Below, one piece after another: positions 1,404 through 7,680 of a stretch of 7,680 bases of DNA. Source of the DNA: a bacterium (GTDB lineage Bacteria > UBP15 > UBA6099 > DSWB01); contig JAGUYV010000325.1 in the NCBI GenBank assembly GCA_020061125.1, forward strand, positions 1 through 7,680. Reading direction: 5' to 3'. Both the position numbers and the translations under genes were made by a program. The notes beneath the pieces were generated by a model, which was given only the letters and a program-made list of their open reading frames with translations, did not search any database and was not told the DNA's origin. Numbering within the stretch: the stretch's first letter is position 1; each line of letters begins with the position of its first letter.

Positions 1404-1413
1404 TGCAGTCTCC

Positions 1414-1804
1414 GGCCGGTTCGAGATACCGGGTTATCTTATACGATCCATTGAAAAAAGCGATCCGAAAAAGGCTTTGTCGCGGCGCGCGTCAGAGATC
1501 GTTCGCGTGGTATCACGCTGACTCCCGCACAAAATCATTGACAAACAGAGCGTTTCTGTGGTTGAATGAATCATGCCATGTCAGGAGTATTCAAAGCCAT
1601 AGAGTTCCGGCCGCGACGCCATAACACCTGGCACGGAACCCGGCGGCAGAAAACATTTTCAAGAGCGCGGACTGCGCCGCAACCAACGAGATAATGAGCA
1701 AAAGGCGCGGTCATTGATTGATGGGAACAAAACCCGAATCCGTTTTTCCGAGTCGGAGTTGTGTCCCCGCAGCGATTTGTAGACGAAGGGTTTATCCGTC
1801 GTCC
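1414..1804. other. Intergenic stretch with no convincing gene
   Basis: About 390 bp between the transporter start and the first long repeat. Short frames exist on both strands (for example 1571-1885 minus), but their translations resemble no family I know, show no coding-like codon bias and run into the repeats. A perfect TTGACA at 1538-1543 with a weak TTGAAT 18 nt later could be a plus-strand promoter, but no gene start lies close downstream. One GTGTCCCC motif is at 1761-1768. No RNA gene or clear terminator is seen. Confidence 0.6.
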
Positions 1805-1961
1805 TCTCATATCAAGGCATAGAGGCCTGAATGGGTAAAGGGAGGCATAATTAAGTATGGTGTCCCCAAAACTTTGTGTCCCCAAAACTTTCTCATATCA
1901 AGGCATAGAGGCCTGAATGGGTAAAGGGAGGCATAATTAAGTATGGTGTCCCCAAAACTTT
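1805..1961. repeat. Direct repeat, two identical 71-bp copies with a 15-bp partial copy between
   Basis: Positions 1805-1875 and 1891-1961 are identical over 71 bp (period 86), beginning TCTCATATCAAGGCATAGAG and ending GTGTCCCCAAAACTTT. The 15-bp spacer (1876-1890) is itself a third copy of the repeat end, GTGTCCCCAAAACTT. Perfect identity indicates a recent tandem duplication. The repeat ends about 43 bp before the start of the DUF2019-like gene. Short noncoding units carrying GTGTCCCC-like ends resemble the repetitive extragenic sequences that accompany REP-associated (Y1/TnpA-type) transposases, but no transposase is present here, so that link is inference. Confidence 0.85.
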
Positions 1962-2004
1962 ACGGGATAAACGCTTTGGAAAAAGCAATGAGAGGAGAAT
2001 TGTA

Positions 2005-2370
2005 ATGCAACAAAAGGAAAATAGAATTGAAAACCTAATAAATATATTTGCTGATTGCGTAGTGAAGCAACATGATGCCATTTGGCAGAAAGCAGATTCA
2101 AATATTGGAAACAAATATGCAAGAAAACTTATTAAGGCATGGGATGATATCTGCAAGATGGGTGATAATGCAAAAGATAGTTTTGTAATATTACTATATC
2201 ATGATGATGTTAGAGTTCGGTCATCAGCCGCTTGTTTTTTATTGAAATACAAACACGAAGAGGCAAAAAGGGTTCTTATTGAAATATCTAAGGGAGAGGA
2301 TATAACAGCCTTCGAAGCCAGCCAATGCTTAATGAGGTGGAAAGAGGGAGAATGGCATCTAGATGAATAA
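2005..2370 (+). CDS. Small DUF2019-like (HEAT-like) protein
   Basis: The product is a 121-aa, probably cytoplasmic helical protein with no signal peptide or membrane segment. Residues 63-95 (LLYHDDVRVRSSAACFLLKY and on through EEAKRVLIEIS) have the HEAT-like pattern of DUF2019 proteins, in which 'hpnp.VRl.AA...L...p..A...L..ia' is followed by a C-terminal segment with conserved Leu/Trp. Here the tail is ASQCLMRWKEGEWHLDE. The family has no established biochemical role; members are small and often lie in variable genomic regions. ATG 2005 has a strong Shine-Dalgarno sequence, GAGGAG at 1992-1997, 7 nt upstream. The gene is distinctly AT-rich (many AAA, AAT, ATA codons) against GC-rich neighbours and is flanked by repeats on both sides, so it is probably horizontally acquired. 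I am sure it is coding and fairly sure of the family. Confidence 0.75.
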   Translation: MQQKENRIENLINIFADCVVKQHDAIWQKADSNIGNKYARKLIKAWDDICKMGDNAKDSFVILLYHDDVRVRSSAACFLLKYKHEEAKRVLIEISKGEDITAFEASQCLMRWKEGEWHLDE

Positions 2371-2377
2371 CTGGCAG

Positions 2378-2451
2378 GAAACTATAGGAAACTAGACAAG
2401 AAACTAGGGACGCTAAGAAACTAGGGAAACTAGAGGGAAACTAGGGACGCT
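2378..2451 (+). repeat. Short tandem repeat array built on GAAACTA
   Basis: GAAACTA occurs six times in 66 bp, at 2378, 2388, 2400, 2417, 2426 and 2437, with irregular spacing (10, 12, 17, 9, 11). A longer unit, GAAACTAGGGACGCT, appears twice (2400-2414 and 2437-2451). The array starts 7 bp after the stop codon of the DUF2019-like gene and merges into the left end of the inverted-repeat element at 2444. It looks like slippage or end-duplication debris rather than a coding or CRISPR array. Confidence 0.75.
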
Positions 2452-2557
2452 TACCATTAAAATGACGCTGCAACACACAACACATTCTCTGCAATACAAC
2501 CACAGAGCGGGCCGCTTCTGTACGATGAATTCTCGTAAAACAAACGGTAAGTGTCCC
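2444..2557. mobile_element. Possible small non-autonomous element with inverted terminal repeats
   Basis: GGGACGCTTACC (2444-2455) and GGTAAGTGTCCC (2546-2557) form an inverted repeat matching at 11 of 12 positions, bounding 114 bp. Near the centre, 2502-2521 can fold into a hairpin: ACAGA pairs with TCTGT and GCG with CGC, with one bulged T and a 3-nt loop. No coding capacity is present. This layout (short termini, central hairpin, noncoding) fits a MITE or REP-type palindromic unit. No target-site duplication is obvious. The element lies between two convergent genes, so the hairpin might also weaken read-through, but no U-tract follows it on either strand. Confidence 0.45.
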
Positions 2558-2583
2558 GATTTAACCAGTGTCCCTATTTAACC
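2550..2583 (+). repeat. Two tandem 17-bp units AGTGTCCC(G/T)ATTTAACC
   Basis: The units at 2550-2566 and 2567-2583 are directly adjacent and differ at one base in 17. The first overlaps the right terminus of the inverted-repeat element, so the second looks like a duplicated element end. The GTGTCCC core is the same as in the repeats at 1761, 1860, 1876 and 1946. The array ends 7 bp before the stop codon of the YdeI-like gene. Confidence 0.8.
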
Positions 2584-2590
2584 GGATGTT

Positions 2591-3211
2591 TCAACAATCC
2601 GTCCATTCCTTTACGAAGCCGATGCGCTTGTTCCGGGCGGTCCTGGCGATAAAATAATTCAGGCTTTTCTCAAACATTTCCTGTCCCTGCCGTCGCCGTT
2701 CTTCAATGTATGCAATGCGAATACGCTTGTAGCTGTCCGGGAAATTGCAGAAATTCTTCCATGCTTCCGTATTCGCTTTAAGCGGCTTGAGGATGTCGGG
2801 AGCTATGGAAATGTTCTTATCGGGTTTTTCGTTTGGATCAAATTCGTGGGCTATTGCTGCGAGTCCCGCCCGGGTCATCTTCTTTTGCTCCACGAGCTTA
2901 TACACTCGTTCTCTGTTTAATTGTGAAAGCCCGCTGTTCTTCTTTCTTGCGGAAAACCGCTGTGCGAAACGCTCATCATCTATTGTTTTCACTATACTGT
3001 CTATCCAGCCGAAACACAGCGCTTCCTCAACAGCATCGTTATATGCAATGCGCGGTTTCCCGCTTGCTTTCTTGTAATATATGAGCCAAATATCCCGTTC
3101 CCTGTCGTGATTTTCCGACAACCACCGCCGCCAGTCTTTTCGGCTCGTAACATACAAAGTCTTCCCTATCTCCATATATCCGGCATTCCCCATATCAAAC
3201 TTGAAGCCCAC
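2591..3211 (-). CDS. YdeI/OmpD-associated (OmdA) family protein
   Basis: The product is a 206-aa, probably cytoplasmic protein matching the YdeI/OmpD-associated family. The N-terminal part has KTLYVTSRKDWRRWL (17-31), IWLIYYKKASGKPRI (41-55), the hallmark DAVEEALCFGWIDS (59-72) and RFSARKKNSGLSQLNRERV (85-103). The C-terminal helical part (149-190, AWKNFCNFPDSYKRIRIAYI and on) matches the bacteriocin-protection/OmdA region. Salmonella YdeI (OmdA) is linked to resistance to cationic peptides such as polymyxin; most homologues are uncharacterised, so that role should not be assumed here. The family usually begins close to 'KTLYV', so ATG 3175 or 3193 are possible starts. GTG 3211 is listed because GAGG lies 10 nt upstream (3221-3224); the other two lack a good Shine-Dalgarno sequence. 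Base composition is lower in GC than the surrounding genes, though less extreme than the DUF2019-like gene. Confidence 0.85.
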   Translation of the reverse strand: MGFKFDMGNAGYMEIGKTLYVTSRKDWRRWLSENHDRERDIWLIYYKKASGKPRIAYNDAVEEALCFGWIDSIVKTIDDERFAQRFSARKKNSGLSQLNRERVYKLVEQKKMTRAGLAAIAHEFDPNEKPDKNISIAPDILKPLKANTEAWKNFCNFPDSYKRIRIAYIEERRRQGQEMFEKSLNYFIARTARNKRIGFVKEWTDC

Positions 3212-3534: not shown

Positions 3535-4476
3535 TTATTTGCCCCCGCGCATGGCTTCGAGGAAATTTCTGATGAGGCGGCGCTCTTCGGGGCTGGCGCT
3601 TTGCATGAGCTTGAGGAACACGGCCAGGTCGCAGTCGCCTTTGGCGGCGCCGGCAAGGGCGTCCATTTCCCCGGGTGAAATCTCACATGCGCCGCCGGAT
3701 GGCCGGGCGGCGTCGGGAACCTCGGTCACCAGTGAGTGGGAAGAAGAGGAGCTTGAGGCCATGGGCGGTGCGTCCGAGGGCATGCGGGGCAGGTCTTTGT
3801 CCGCGGCAGGCGCGGGCGCGCCGGGGTCGTGCGGGTTGCCCGCCACCATACCTCCGAACTCGCGGCTTTTGAGCAAAAGGGTCTCGCGCTTGTCGGCTTC
3901 GCCCTGGAACTGGAAGCTGCGGATGGCGGACTCGATGGCGTCCCTGTGTTTCTGGTAGCTGGAGTAGGGGCACTGGAAATAGATGCCGATGCCGCGGCCC
4001 GCGGTGACGCCCCAGAGGTTCACGGCGGCCAGGGGGATGTCTTTGTGCTCGGGCAGGAGGAACCCGATGGAGCGGCCGGGGCCGGAGTAGGCGGCATGAT
4101 AGAGCACGCGGCCGCCGGTGTAGCGGTAGGCGCTGGCCGGCTCCTGCCCCAGGAGCGTGCGGTAGTAGGCGTCGTAGGATGCGCCGATGTCGTTGATGCT
4201 GCCGCCGCCGATGTCGTGCGAAATGATGAAGAACACCAGGTCACCGGCGCGGGCCACGAACACTGCGGGCTGCGCGCTGGGCTGGTAGCGGAATTCGCCG
4301 GGGTTGGACTCCGCGGTCCAGCCCGGGGGCAGGGTGAGGCTCATGTTCACGGCCTGCACCTGGGTCTGTGCGCGTGCGGTCGCGGCCCAGGCCATGAAAA
4401 CCGCGGCGGTAAGGGCGAGCAGCACGGGCCGCGGCGTTTTATTCCCATAAAATGGATTCCATCGGTGTGTGCGCAT
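3535..4476 (-). CDS. Exported protein with PsbP/DUF1795-like N-terminal half, third gene of VWA operon
   Basis: The 313-aa product has a signal peptide: basic N-terminus, hydrophobic core PVLLALTAAVFMAWAATARA (17-36), likely cut after ARA. Residues 42-191 (start MSLTLPPGW, end RDAIESAIRSFQFQ) have the look of PsbP/DcrB/DUF1795-type folds: 'f.lp.gW' at the start and a final helix 'l...i.sf.f'. This is pattern recognition, not a firm match. Residues 213-263 form a low-complexity linker rich in Pro, Ala and Ser, with six serines at 241-246. The C-terminal 50 residues hold a small charged helical module with two cysteines (C264, C282) and the stretch SPEERRLIRNFLEAM. ATG 4476 is chosen because it begins the signal peptide and has GGA 7 nt upstream. 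A longer TTG start at 4524 would overlap the VWA gene stop. The gap to the VWA gene is 44 nt, which suggests co-transcription. Confidence 0.8.
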   Translation of the reverse strand: MRTHRWNPFYGNKTPRPVLLALTAAVFMAWAATARAQTQVQAVNMSLTLPPGWTAESNPGEFRYQPSAQPAVFVARAGDLVFFIISHDIGGGSINDIGASYDAYYRTLLGQEPASAYRYTGGRVLYHAAYSGPGRSIGFLLPEHKDIPLAAVNLWGVTAGRGIGIYFQCPYSSYQKHRDAIESAIRSFQFQGEADKRETLLLKSREFGGMVAGNPHDPGAPAPAADKDLPRMPSDAPPMASSSSSSHSLVTEVPDAARPSGGACEISPGEMDALAGAAKGDCDLAVFLKLMQSASPEERRLIRNFLEAMRGGK

Positions 4477-4520: not shown

Positions 4521-5855
4521 TCAATTTTTCAGTTCCCAGGTTTCACCGGTGATTTTGGGCGTGTACGCGGGGATTTCCGTGGTGTCGTGAATTTCTTCCA
4601 CGCTGAAGCGGAACTTGGCGGGCGAGTCGGCCGTGGACCAGTAGAATCCGTAGTGGCGGCAGGACAGGGCGCCGCCCTCGCCGTGCACCCATTCGCGATA
4701 GTCCCGGGCGTCGCGGCGCAGGTCTATGGCGTTCCATTGCACCGCGCCGTTGAAGTTGCCGCACGCCAGGACTTCGGTCCACCAGATTTTTTTATCGGGC
4801 ACGGGCAGGCCGTTGTGGATGGCGTATTTGGTGTGGGTGAGCGTGCCTTCGAGTGGCTGCGCGATGACATAGTCCGCGGGCAGGTACGGCTCGAAGCCCA
4901 CCACGGCGTCGCCGCCCTTGCGCAGGGGCCGGCTGCTCTCGTTGATTTTGCCCTCGGAGAATTTGAAAATGCCCACCTGCTTCTTGATCCAGCACCCGGT
5001 TTTGAGCGCGTCAATCACGAAGGGTTCGCCGGGGTCCAGGCGCACGCAGTTCTGCAGGCCCGCGGTCATGTCGGCGGAGAAATCCGTGAGGTCGTTGATT
5101 TTGCCGCCGTAGATGCGCGTGAGGCTCAAGTCGCCGAATATGAGGGATTCGGGTATGGCGGCGAACACGCTCATGAGCTGCTGCGTGTTGTGAGCCGGGA
5201 AGAACTGGCCGCCGCCCGCGCGGGCCGCCATTTGCAGCATGGCGAATTCGGGCGAGTCCGGCTTCACGGTGTAGCTGACAATGTGCGTGCGGGGGGCGAG
5301 GTCGCCGCACCCGTAATTCACGCTGCTCTCGAAGACCGTGGCCGCGGACTGCACGGGATTGCCTTCGCAGGATTCGCCGCCGTCGGTGAGCATGATGATC
5401 ATGGAGCGGGAATACTTGCCCATGCGGCAGGCGTGCTCGCCGCCCCTGTCAATGGCCAGGCCCAGGGGCGTGTTGCCGGAAGCGATCTGGCGCAGGGCGC
5501 GCACGGACTGGCGCACGCTGGCGTAATTGGTGGTGAACTGCTGAACCACGGGCGTGCTGTGGCAGCCGCCGGTGCGCATCACGGATACTTCGGGCCGCGG
5601 GGTGACGCGCTCGAACCCGTCCAGAAGGCGCTCCACGGCGCTCACGGCGTCGTCAATCTTGCGCATGCTGCCGTCCGGGGACAGGTCGTTCATGCTGCCC
5701 GAGGTGTCCATTATCAAGAGCACGGACACGCCGTCGCTCTGCTTGGCGCGCGCCGCAGCGGGCCGCGCCAGGGCGCAGAAGACCGCAACCGCCGCCAGCA
5801 GCATGGCCAAGCGGGGAATGAGCAGTGTGGTGTTGGCGCGTTCCTTGTGGTTCAT
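4521..5855 (-). CDS. Exported von Willebrand factor A protein with C-terminal four-Cys domain
   Basis: The 444-aa product has a signal peptide (residues 1-37, core LAMLLAAVAVFCALA, likely cut after AARA). A VWA domain spans about 43-235 with an intact MIDAS: D50-T-S52-G-S54, T129 (GNTPLG) and D158 (LTDGG), so divalent-metal-dependent ligand binding is expected. It carries extra cysteines (C98, C143, C163, C183) that could pair in the periplasm. Residues 247-444 (nucleotides 4521-5117) form a second domain not known to me, also found alone in the upstream protein; its cysteines are C270, C288, C365 and C399. Landmarks are TGCWIKKQVGIFKF (286-299), LTHTKY (339-344), WW (358-359), ACGN (364-367), QWNAIDLR (373-380) and HGEGG.LSCRHYGFYW (391-406). 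No membrane anchor follows the signal peptide, so it should be periplasmic or secreted. ATG 5855 lies 29 nt after the preceding gene; its Shine-Dalgarno sequence (GGA) is weak and close. The open frame continues upstream, but there it only shadows the neighbouring gene. Confidence 0.88.
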   Translation of the reverse strand: MNHKERANTTLLIPRLAMLLAAVAVFCALARPAAARAKQSDGVSVLLIMDTSGSMNDLSPDGSMRKIDDAVSAVERLLDGFERVTPRPEVSVMRTGGCHSTPVVQQFTTNYASVRQSVRALRQIASGNTPLGLAIDRGGEHACRMGKYSRSMIIMLTDGGESCEGNPVQSAATVFESSVNYGCGDLAPRTHIVSYTVKPDSPEFAMLQMAARAGGGQFFPAHNTQQLMSVFAAIPESLIFGDLSLTRIYGGKINDLTDFSADMTAGLQNCVRLDPGEPFVIDALKTGCWIKKQVGIFKFSEGKINESSRPLRKGGDAVVGFEPYLPADYVIAQPLEGTLTHTKYAIHNGLPVPDKKIWWTEVLACGNFNGAVQWNAIDLRRDARDYREWVHGEGGALSCRHYGFYWSTADSPAKFRFSVEEIHDTTEIPAYTPKITGETWELKN

Positions 5856-5884
5856 GCGTTCCGTTTCTTGTCGTGCGCGCGGCG

Positions 5885-6616
5885 CTATTGCTTGATCTGC
5901 CATTCCTCGCCCACGATGCGGTTCTCGCGATACGGGTAGGGCCGCAGGATTTCCACTTCCTGCACATCGAAATGGAACCGCGCGTCTTTTTCGAGCACGG
6001 ACCAGTAGAATCCATAGTGGCGGCACGAGGTGGCGCCGCCTTCGCCGTGGATCCATTCGCGGGCGCTGCCGTAGTCCCAGCGCACATCCACCGCGTTCCA
6101 CTGGGTCGCGCCGCTGTAGTTGCCGCAGACCATGATTTCCTGCCACCACACCTTCATCTCGGGTTCGGGCAGGCCGTTGACGATCACATACTTGGTGTGC
6201 GTGAGCTTGGTTTCCAGGGCCTGGGAGATGAGGTAGTCGGGCGCGGCTTTGGGGTCGAACGGGACCACGGACTCGCCGCCCGTGAGCATGGGCCGGCTGC
6301 TGTGTTCGATAACCTCGCCCGTGAACTTGAAGATGCCCACCTGTTTTTTGACCCAGCACCCTGTCTGCAAAGATTTGAAGGTGAATTTCTGTGAGGGGTC
6401 CAGGAACACGCACTGGCGCGGGTCCACATTGGGCGGCAGCATGGGTTCCATTTCCCAGGCGAATTGCGAGAGGTCGCTGGCCGCGCCCCGGTACACGGAG
6501 CGGATGTCCGCGGATGCCGCGGATGCGGGGTACGCCATGGCCAGCGCCGCCAGGGCGGCCGCAAGCGCCAGTGTTGCGCGCAATCCTTTATGCAATGACT
6601 TGATCTGAAATCGCAT
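5885..6616 (-). CDS. Exported single-domain paralogue of the VWA protein C-terminus
   Basis: The 243-aa product has a signal peptide (1-36, core LALAAALAALAMA, cleavage near ASA). The remainder is one copy of the four-Cys domain (nucleotides 5885-6499), aligned without gaps to VWA-protein residues 270-444: 95 of 175 identical by hand count (54%). Cysteines C69, C87, C164 and C198 have exactly the same spacing (18, 77, 34). Before the first Cys, similarity continues (VYRGAASDLSQFAWEM against IYGGKINDLTDFSADM) with a 6-residue length difference. Shared signatures include GCWVKKQVGIFKF, SSRP, LTHTKY.I.NGLP, CGN..GA.QWNA and HGEGGA.SCRHYGFYWS. I do not recognise this domain. It is probably periplasmic and disulfide-bonded (inference). 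ATG 6616 is chosen over the upstream ATG 6754 because it begins the signal peptide, has GGA 7 nt upstream and lies after the candidate promoter. First gene of the three-gene operon. Confidence 0.88.
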   Translation of the reverse strand: MRFQIKSLHKGLRATLALAAALAALAMAYPASAASADIRSVYRGAASDLSQFAWEMEPMLPPNVDPRQCVFLDPSQKFTFKSLQTGCWVKKQVGIFKFTGEVIEHSSRPMLTGGESVVPFDPKAAPDYLISQALETKLTHTKYVIVNGLPEPEMKVWWQEIMVCGNYSGATQWNAVDVRWDYGSAREWIHGEGGATSCRHYGFYWSVLEKDARFHFDVQEVEILRPYPYRENRIVGEEWQIKQ

Positions 6617-6856: not shown

Positions 6857-7396
6857 ATGGCCGATGAGCCGCTCATCAAAGTCAAGCCCCACGCGCTCAA
6901 GCGCATGGCGCCGCTGTTCGCGCCCGGTGAAACCCTGCTCGTGGCGCTGCCCTGCGGCCGCATGGACCTTGACAGCAAAACCCTGCGCGACGCGGACCGC
7001 GACTATTTTCTGGTCACGGACCGGCGCGTGCTGTCCGTGCCGGGCGCGTGGTTCCGCACGGGCAAAGGAGCGCTGGGGTTTCTGCGCGCCATGATTTTCG
7101 ATGCGGACTTGACCGTGCATGTGCTCGGGGCCACGCTCACCGTGCATGTGCAGGCGCGCGGCCAGGCGCCGGAGCGGTCCGTGGCGTTCACCAACCTGAA
7201 GAAGCCCGACGCCGAATATGCGCTCAAGCTGCTGCGCGAGCCGTGCACCGTGCGCGTGTGCAAGGCGTGCGGCAAGCCCCTGCGCGACGATTTCGCCATG
7301 TGCCCGTTCTGCCAGGCCAGCCTCAAGCGCGTGTGCGGCAACTGCGGCCGCCCCATGCAGGACGCCTGGGTTTCCTGCCCCTACTGCGGGGCATGA
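6857..7396 (+). CDS. PH-like domain protein with two C-terminal zinc ribbons
   Basis: The 179-aa product is probably cytoplasmic (no signal peptide or TM segment). Residues 20-128 begin with FAPGETLLVALP and include YFLVTDRRVLSVPG (50-63). This is the pattern of bacterial PH-like domains (YokE/bPH type: 'l.pgE.i......' then 'y.lvTdrRll'). The tail carries two CxxC...CxxC zinc ribbons: C135/C138 with C149/C152 (CKACGKPLRDDFAMCPFC) and C160/C163 with C174/C177 (CGNCGRPMQDAWVSCPYC), as in double-zinc-ribbon proteins. Such proteins are usually adaptors, but no partner is known here. ATG 6857 is chosen because GGAG (6847-6850) lies 6 nt upstream; the in-frame ATG 6845 has no Shine-Dalgarno sequence. 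The gene is divergent from the VWA operon across a shared control region and is followed 141 nt later by another zinc-ribbon gene. Confidence 0.82.
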   Translation: MADEPLIKVKPHALKRMAPLFAPGETLLVALPCGRMDLDSKTLRDADRDYFLVTDRRVLSVPGAWFRTGKGALGFLRAMIFDADLTVHVLGATLTVHVQARGQAPERSVAFTNLKKPDAEYALKLLREPCTVRVCKACGKPLRDDFAMCPFCQASLKRVCGNCGRPMQDAWVSCPYCGA

Positions 7397-7537: not shown

Positions 7538-7680
7538 ATGGATAATCCCTTCTGTCCCAATTGCGGTATGGAAGTGCAGCCCGGCGAAGCCTTCTGCGGC
7601 ACCTGCGGGTTCAATCTGCAGCAGACAACCGCGGCCGCGCCGCCTCCGCCCGTTGCCGCGCCCGCACCCCCGGCTCCACC
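7538..7680 (+). CDS. Zinc-ribbon protein with Pro/Ala-rich linker (3' end cut by window)
   Basis: The visible 47 residues begin MDNPFCPNCGMEVQPGEAFC and continue GTCG. This is a classic N-terminal zinc ribbon with C6/C9 and C20/C23, followed from about residue 32 by a Pro/Ala-rich linker that runs to the window edge. In proteins of this layout the ribbon and flexible linker usually precede a further domain, often a membrane segment or PH/VWA-like region; here it lies outside the window. Three in-frame ATGs exist (7529, 7532, 7538). AGAGG at 7524-7528 touches the first, so ATG 7538, with 9-nt spacing, is the best start. The gene lies downstream of and in the same direction as the PH-like double-ribbon gene. 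Confidence 0.8.
   Translation, partial: MDNPFCPNCGMEVQPGEAFCGTCGFNLQQTTAAAPPPPVAAPAPPAP

Follow-up and report, generated by a model that had tools for sequence, protein, structure and literature searches.

A four-cysteine domain present free and fused to a VWA domain in two adjacent, probably exported proteins of a UBP15 bacterium

Results

The window analysed here, a 7,680-nt contig from a bacterium of the phylum UBP15, carries three co-oriented genes on the minus strand (5885-6616, 4521-5855, and 3535-4476), separated by gaps of 29 and 44 bp. No terminator-like sites were found on the minus strand between them, and the three are probably co-transcribed as an operon. Read directly from the sequence, the N-termini of all three products pass from a basic stretch through a hydrophobic run to an Ala-x-Ala-like end; these signal-like features, judged by eye, suggest that all three proteins are likely exported. 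The first gene encodes a 243-residue protein in which a signal peptide-like N-terminus (about residues 1-33) precedes a domain with four cysteines (residues 36-243, encoded by 5885-6511, with the first Cys codon at 6410-6412); it matches no family. The second gene encodes a 444-residue protein composed of a signal-like N-terminus, a VWA domain (residues 45-226, encoded by 5178-5723) and, after almost no linker, a further copy of the four-Cys domain (residues 245-444, encoded by 4521-5123, with the first Cys codon at 5046-5048). Both copies of the domain were delimited by pairwise comparison. An earlier note on this DNA had assigned the pair to 4521-6499; the boundary at the VWA protein is correct, and the one at the free protein falls short, the gene being 5885-6616.

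The third gene, a probable operon member, encodes a 313-residue protein that is predicted to be exported and has no confident family. It matched no Pfam family above the cut-off, a weak NEW3 match lying below it, and its single match in the genomes of the phylum was at chance level (E 0.04). Its N-terminal half, with PPGW near the start and AIRSFQFQ near the end, bears a resemblance to PsbP/DUF1795-type proteins, as judged by eye. Beside the operon lie two divergently oriented zinc-ribbon genes. The adjoining one (6857-7396) encodes a protein with a C-terminal double zinc ribbon (PF12773). The other (7539-7680) is cut by the contig end; as read from the sequence, its product has a zinc ribbon at the start and a Pro/Ala-rich stretch after it.

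The free and the VWA-fused copies are one and the same domain, as the earlier note had claimed. From Cys270 of the VWA protein and Cys69 of the free protein to the respective C-termini the two align without a gap, with 95 of 175 residues identical (54%), and the four cysteines keep a spacing of 18, 77, and 34 in both (positions 270, 288, 365, and 399 in the VWA protein; 69, 87, 164, and 198 in the free copy). All four motifs that had been quoted, GCW.KKQVGIFKF, LTHTKY, CGN..GA.QWNA, and HGEGGA.SCRHYGFYWS, are present in each copy. The likeness reaches ~30 residues N-terminal of the first Cys, where a single gap of six residues is needed, and this brings the overall count to 102 of 206 identical residues; over the last 25 residues of the domain identity drops to 28%. 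In BLASTP the two copies match with 228 bits (E 3e-77), and among 1000 composition-preserving shuffles none exceeded 23 identities, against the 95 observed. The mature proteins have even numbers of cysteines (four in the free copy and eight in the VWA protein, whose VWA half has four of its own at positions 98, 143, 163, and 183), in line with a four-Cys domain that is probably stabilised by disulfides.

Strict retention between the copies of motifs rich in His, Glu, Trp, and Gly, such as the last of those listed above and LTHTKY, would also suit an extracellular enzyme, in which the four-Cys domain is catalytic and the VWA domain serves as a metal-dependent dock for a substrate or partner. 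However, no enzyme family was matched, and two paralogues alone cannot tell catalytic from structural conservation; we regard an enzyme as quite improbable.

The pair looks like an old tandem duplication in which both copies have been retained under constraint. Where the copies share a residue, 70 of 95 codons are identical, compared with 58.7 expected from codon usage. Synonymous sites, judged by third positions and shared codons, thus stand close to codon-usage equilibrium while over half of the protein sequence is still shared, which argues for an old event and a conserved protein. We did not use the pairwise dN/dS of 0.46 between the copies to gauge selection, as its synonymous estimate is limited by codon bias.

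The VWA half of the 444-residue protein is typical of its family. It matches PF13519 (VWA_2) with 39.5 bits (curated cut-off 27) and PF00092 (VWA) with 28.8 bits (curated cut-off 23.8), and its MIDAS residues are all present: D50-T-S52-G-S54 (the DxSxS motif), T129, and D158. The earlier description of a fusion to a metal-binding VWA domain therefore holds for the fold family and the motif, and metal binding itself is predicted from these residues. The nearest PDB sequence, 4rck (E 0.003), aligns over the VWA part only; the C-terminal four-Cys domain, in contrast to the VWA half, has no family match.

That the four-Cys domain belongs to no known family was borne out for both copies, which lacked a match in Pfam (even at E 10), NCBIfam, PHROGs, PADLOC, and PDB sequences; two weak PHROGs rows (E 0.16 and 0.29) covered the signal region only. 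When the genome itself was searched with a protein query and with a two-row profile, only the two known copies were recovered. They find each other at 50% identity with E 1e-70, the sole gauge of search sensitivity, so that distant relatives could escape. Six other genomes of the phylum, from the same order and other families, contained no four-Cys domain detectable with the two-row profile even at E 10. VWA proteins are present elsewhere in the phylum, yet the whole-genome profile search placed the four-Cys domain in none of them. Across 386 genomes spread over the taxonomic domain and 577 from four other phyla (~950 sampled), we found short chance matches only. The weak rows L004-L010 and L019 were rejected as relatives: they are short, lack the four cysteines, and lie inside unrelated proteins or run across stop codons, the match in L005, for example, falling within what by eye is a homocysteine methyltransferase-like protein and that in L009 within a pseudouridine synthase-like one. 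Translated searches of plasmids and phages returned no relative of the four-Cys domain. Pattern scans of GTDB and IMG/VR also returned none; we treat these as weak negatives because they are coarse, depending on exact words of 6-8 residues, and miss relatives below ~60% identity. By these searches the four-Cys domain is a real, lineage-restricted novelty of putative function, and the arrangement is that of a VWA domain fused to an unrecognised domain that also stands free beside the fusion.

The contig itself is correctly assigned. An MFS transporter gene at 111-1403 has counterparts that are 78% identical in three genomes of the same order and 61% identical in a fourth; the close matches in three same-order genomes rule out misbinning. 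Synteny is not conserved: at the MFS-gene loci of the four relatives the operon is absent and RND-pump-type or other genes are found. The operon may have been gained horizontally, or lost in the relatives. In two of them (L040 and L042) the far side of the MFS gene is occupied by a large gene that we take, from the sequence CAIYVRVST read by eye, to be serine-recombinase-like, and the MFS locus may therefore be an integration hotspot.

Base composition separates the operon from the DNA next to it. The GC content of the operon (0.62-0.67) resembles that of the MFS gene (0.64), whereas the 1404-3211 segment has 0.44-0.48, with 0.62-0.68 around it; the foreign-looking part is thus this segment and not the operon. 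The segment looks like acquired or transposon-derived DNA. It contains two ORFs, one DUF2019-like (2005-2370) and one of the OmdA/YdeI family (2591-3211). It also harbours repeats: at 1805-1961 a 71-bp sequence occurs in two perfect copies and GTGTCCCCAAAACTTT in three units, and at 2398-2451 there are repeats of the GGGAAACTAGGGACGCT type.

Free and fused copies of one domain side by side could also reflect homotypic assembly, in which the free protein is a structural subunit that forms extracellular polymers or dimers, and the fused copy joins through its own domain as a minor, tip, or capping subunit. VWA-bearing tip subunits exist, ComC/PilY1 being an example (PMC10374093). On this contig, however, pilin, sortase, and secretion genes were not found; nor was an assembly motif, and the C-terminus carries no sorting signal. 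We consider homotypic assembly unlikely.

Structure prediction with a fold search, which the earlier note had proposed, yielded models but no usable fold assignment. Two AlphaFold runs on a two-row alignment, with each copy as query once, gave mean pLDDT values of 46 and 43, below useful confidence. Both low-confidence models place strands at CW.KKQVGIFKF, WW.E...C, CRHYGFYWS, and the following F.F.V.E, and a short helix ahead of the first Cys, which makes a beta-rich domain plausible. The hits of the first model were Ig-like adhesin domains (best VIA Z 5.9, rmsd 3.0 over 113 residues); those of the second, from the same alignment, were hot-dog and other folds unrelated to them. VIA Z values below 8 are common by chance according to the tool's own remark. 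Since model confidence is low, we do not take the Foldseek and VIA lists, which disagree between the runs, as evidence for any fold.

The Ig-like hits of the first model nonetheless bear on a further explanation, that the domain has a known fold (an Ig-like or jelly-roll beta-sandwich) diverged past sequence recognition and that its novelty reflects sparse sampling of the lineage. The comparison within the phylum covers six other genomes, none of the same family, which would favour such a view. Against it, the Z score lies in the range common by chance and the second model drew unrelated folds. A diverged known fold, which we think doubtful, would be compatible with a binding module rather than exclusive of it.

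Discussion

VWA domains in general are protein-binding modules. Together with the Cys pattern and the probable export of the two proteins, this leads us to favour, with a probability of about 0.45, a reading in which the four-Cys domain is a lineage-restricted, probably disulfide-stabilised, exported binding domain that has been duplicated, with one copy fused to a MIDAS-type VWA domain. The domain would act outside the cytoplasm as a binding module, used once alone and once coupled to the metal site of the VWA domain. The free and the VWA-borne copies would bind one another or a common ligand, with the VWA domain gripping an acidic group on a partner through its metal ion. Either of the earlier note's suggestions, self-assembly or a receptor/ligand pair, may apply. 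Four points speak against this reading: no neighbour of known function hints at binding or adhesion, the structure models fall below useful confidence, the operon has been seen on a single 7.7 kb contig, too little to establish conserved gene association, and a catalytic site would account just as well for the conserved Trp, His, and Glu residues. We think it rather improbable that the domain founds a new exported family whose free and VWA-fused copies make up an extracellular complex of two dedicated components, in which the VWA domain uses its metal to regulate or cap assembly of the free subunit.

Among known systems, the type IV pilus tip adhesins ComC/PilY1 are exported proteins with an N-terminal VWA domain bearing a MIDAS (PMC10374093), an architecture that the 444-residue protein appears to share. 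Unlike them, it is only 444 residues long and lacks the PilC/PilY1 C-terminal domain (no Pfam family at E<=10), and there are no pilin genes on its contig; the missing PilC domain rules out a PilY1/ComC-type adhesin. A sortase-anchored tip adhesin (RrgA-like) is likewise ruled out, as the protein ends in KITGETWELKN, with neither an LPXTG-type motif nor a hydrophobic tail. The four-Cys domain fits a broad and amply documented class, the FESNov families of uncultivated taxa, of which 404,085 have been catalogued and 23.7% have signal peptides (PMC10849945): constraint and the lack of known relatives are common to both. In contrast, FESNov families span several species, and the four-Cys domain is so far found in one genome. 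Because constrained exported families without relatives are numerous in uncultured phyla (PMC10849945), the domain is interesting rather than exceptional. Should the domain prove to have a novel fold or a specific partner, this poorly sampled phylum would gain an extracellular module, and the pair would offer a compact two-protein system for studying how bacterial VWA domains recruit their partners.
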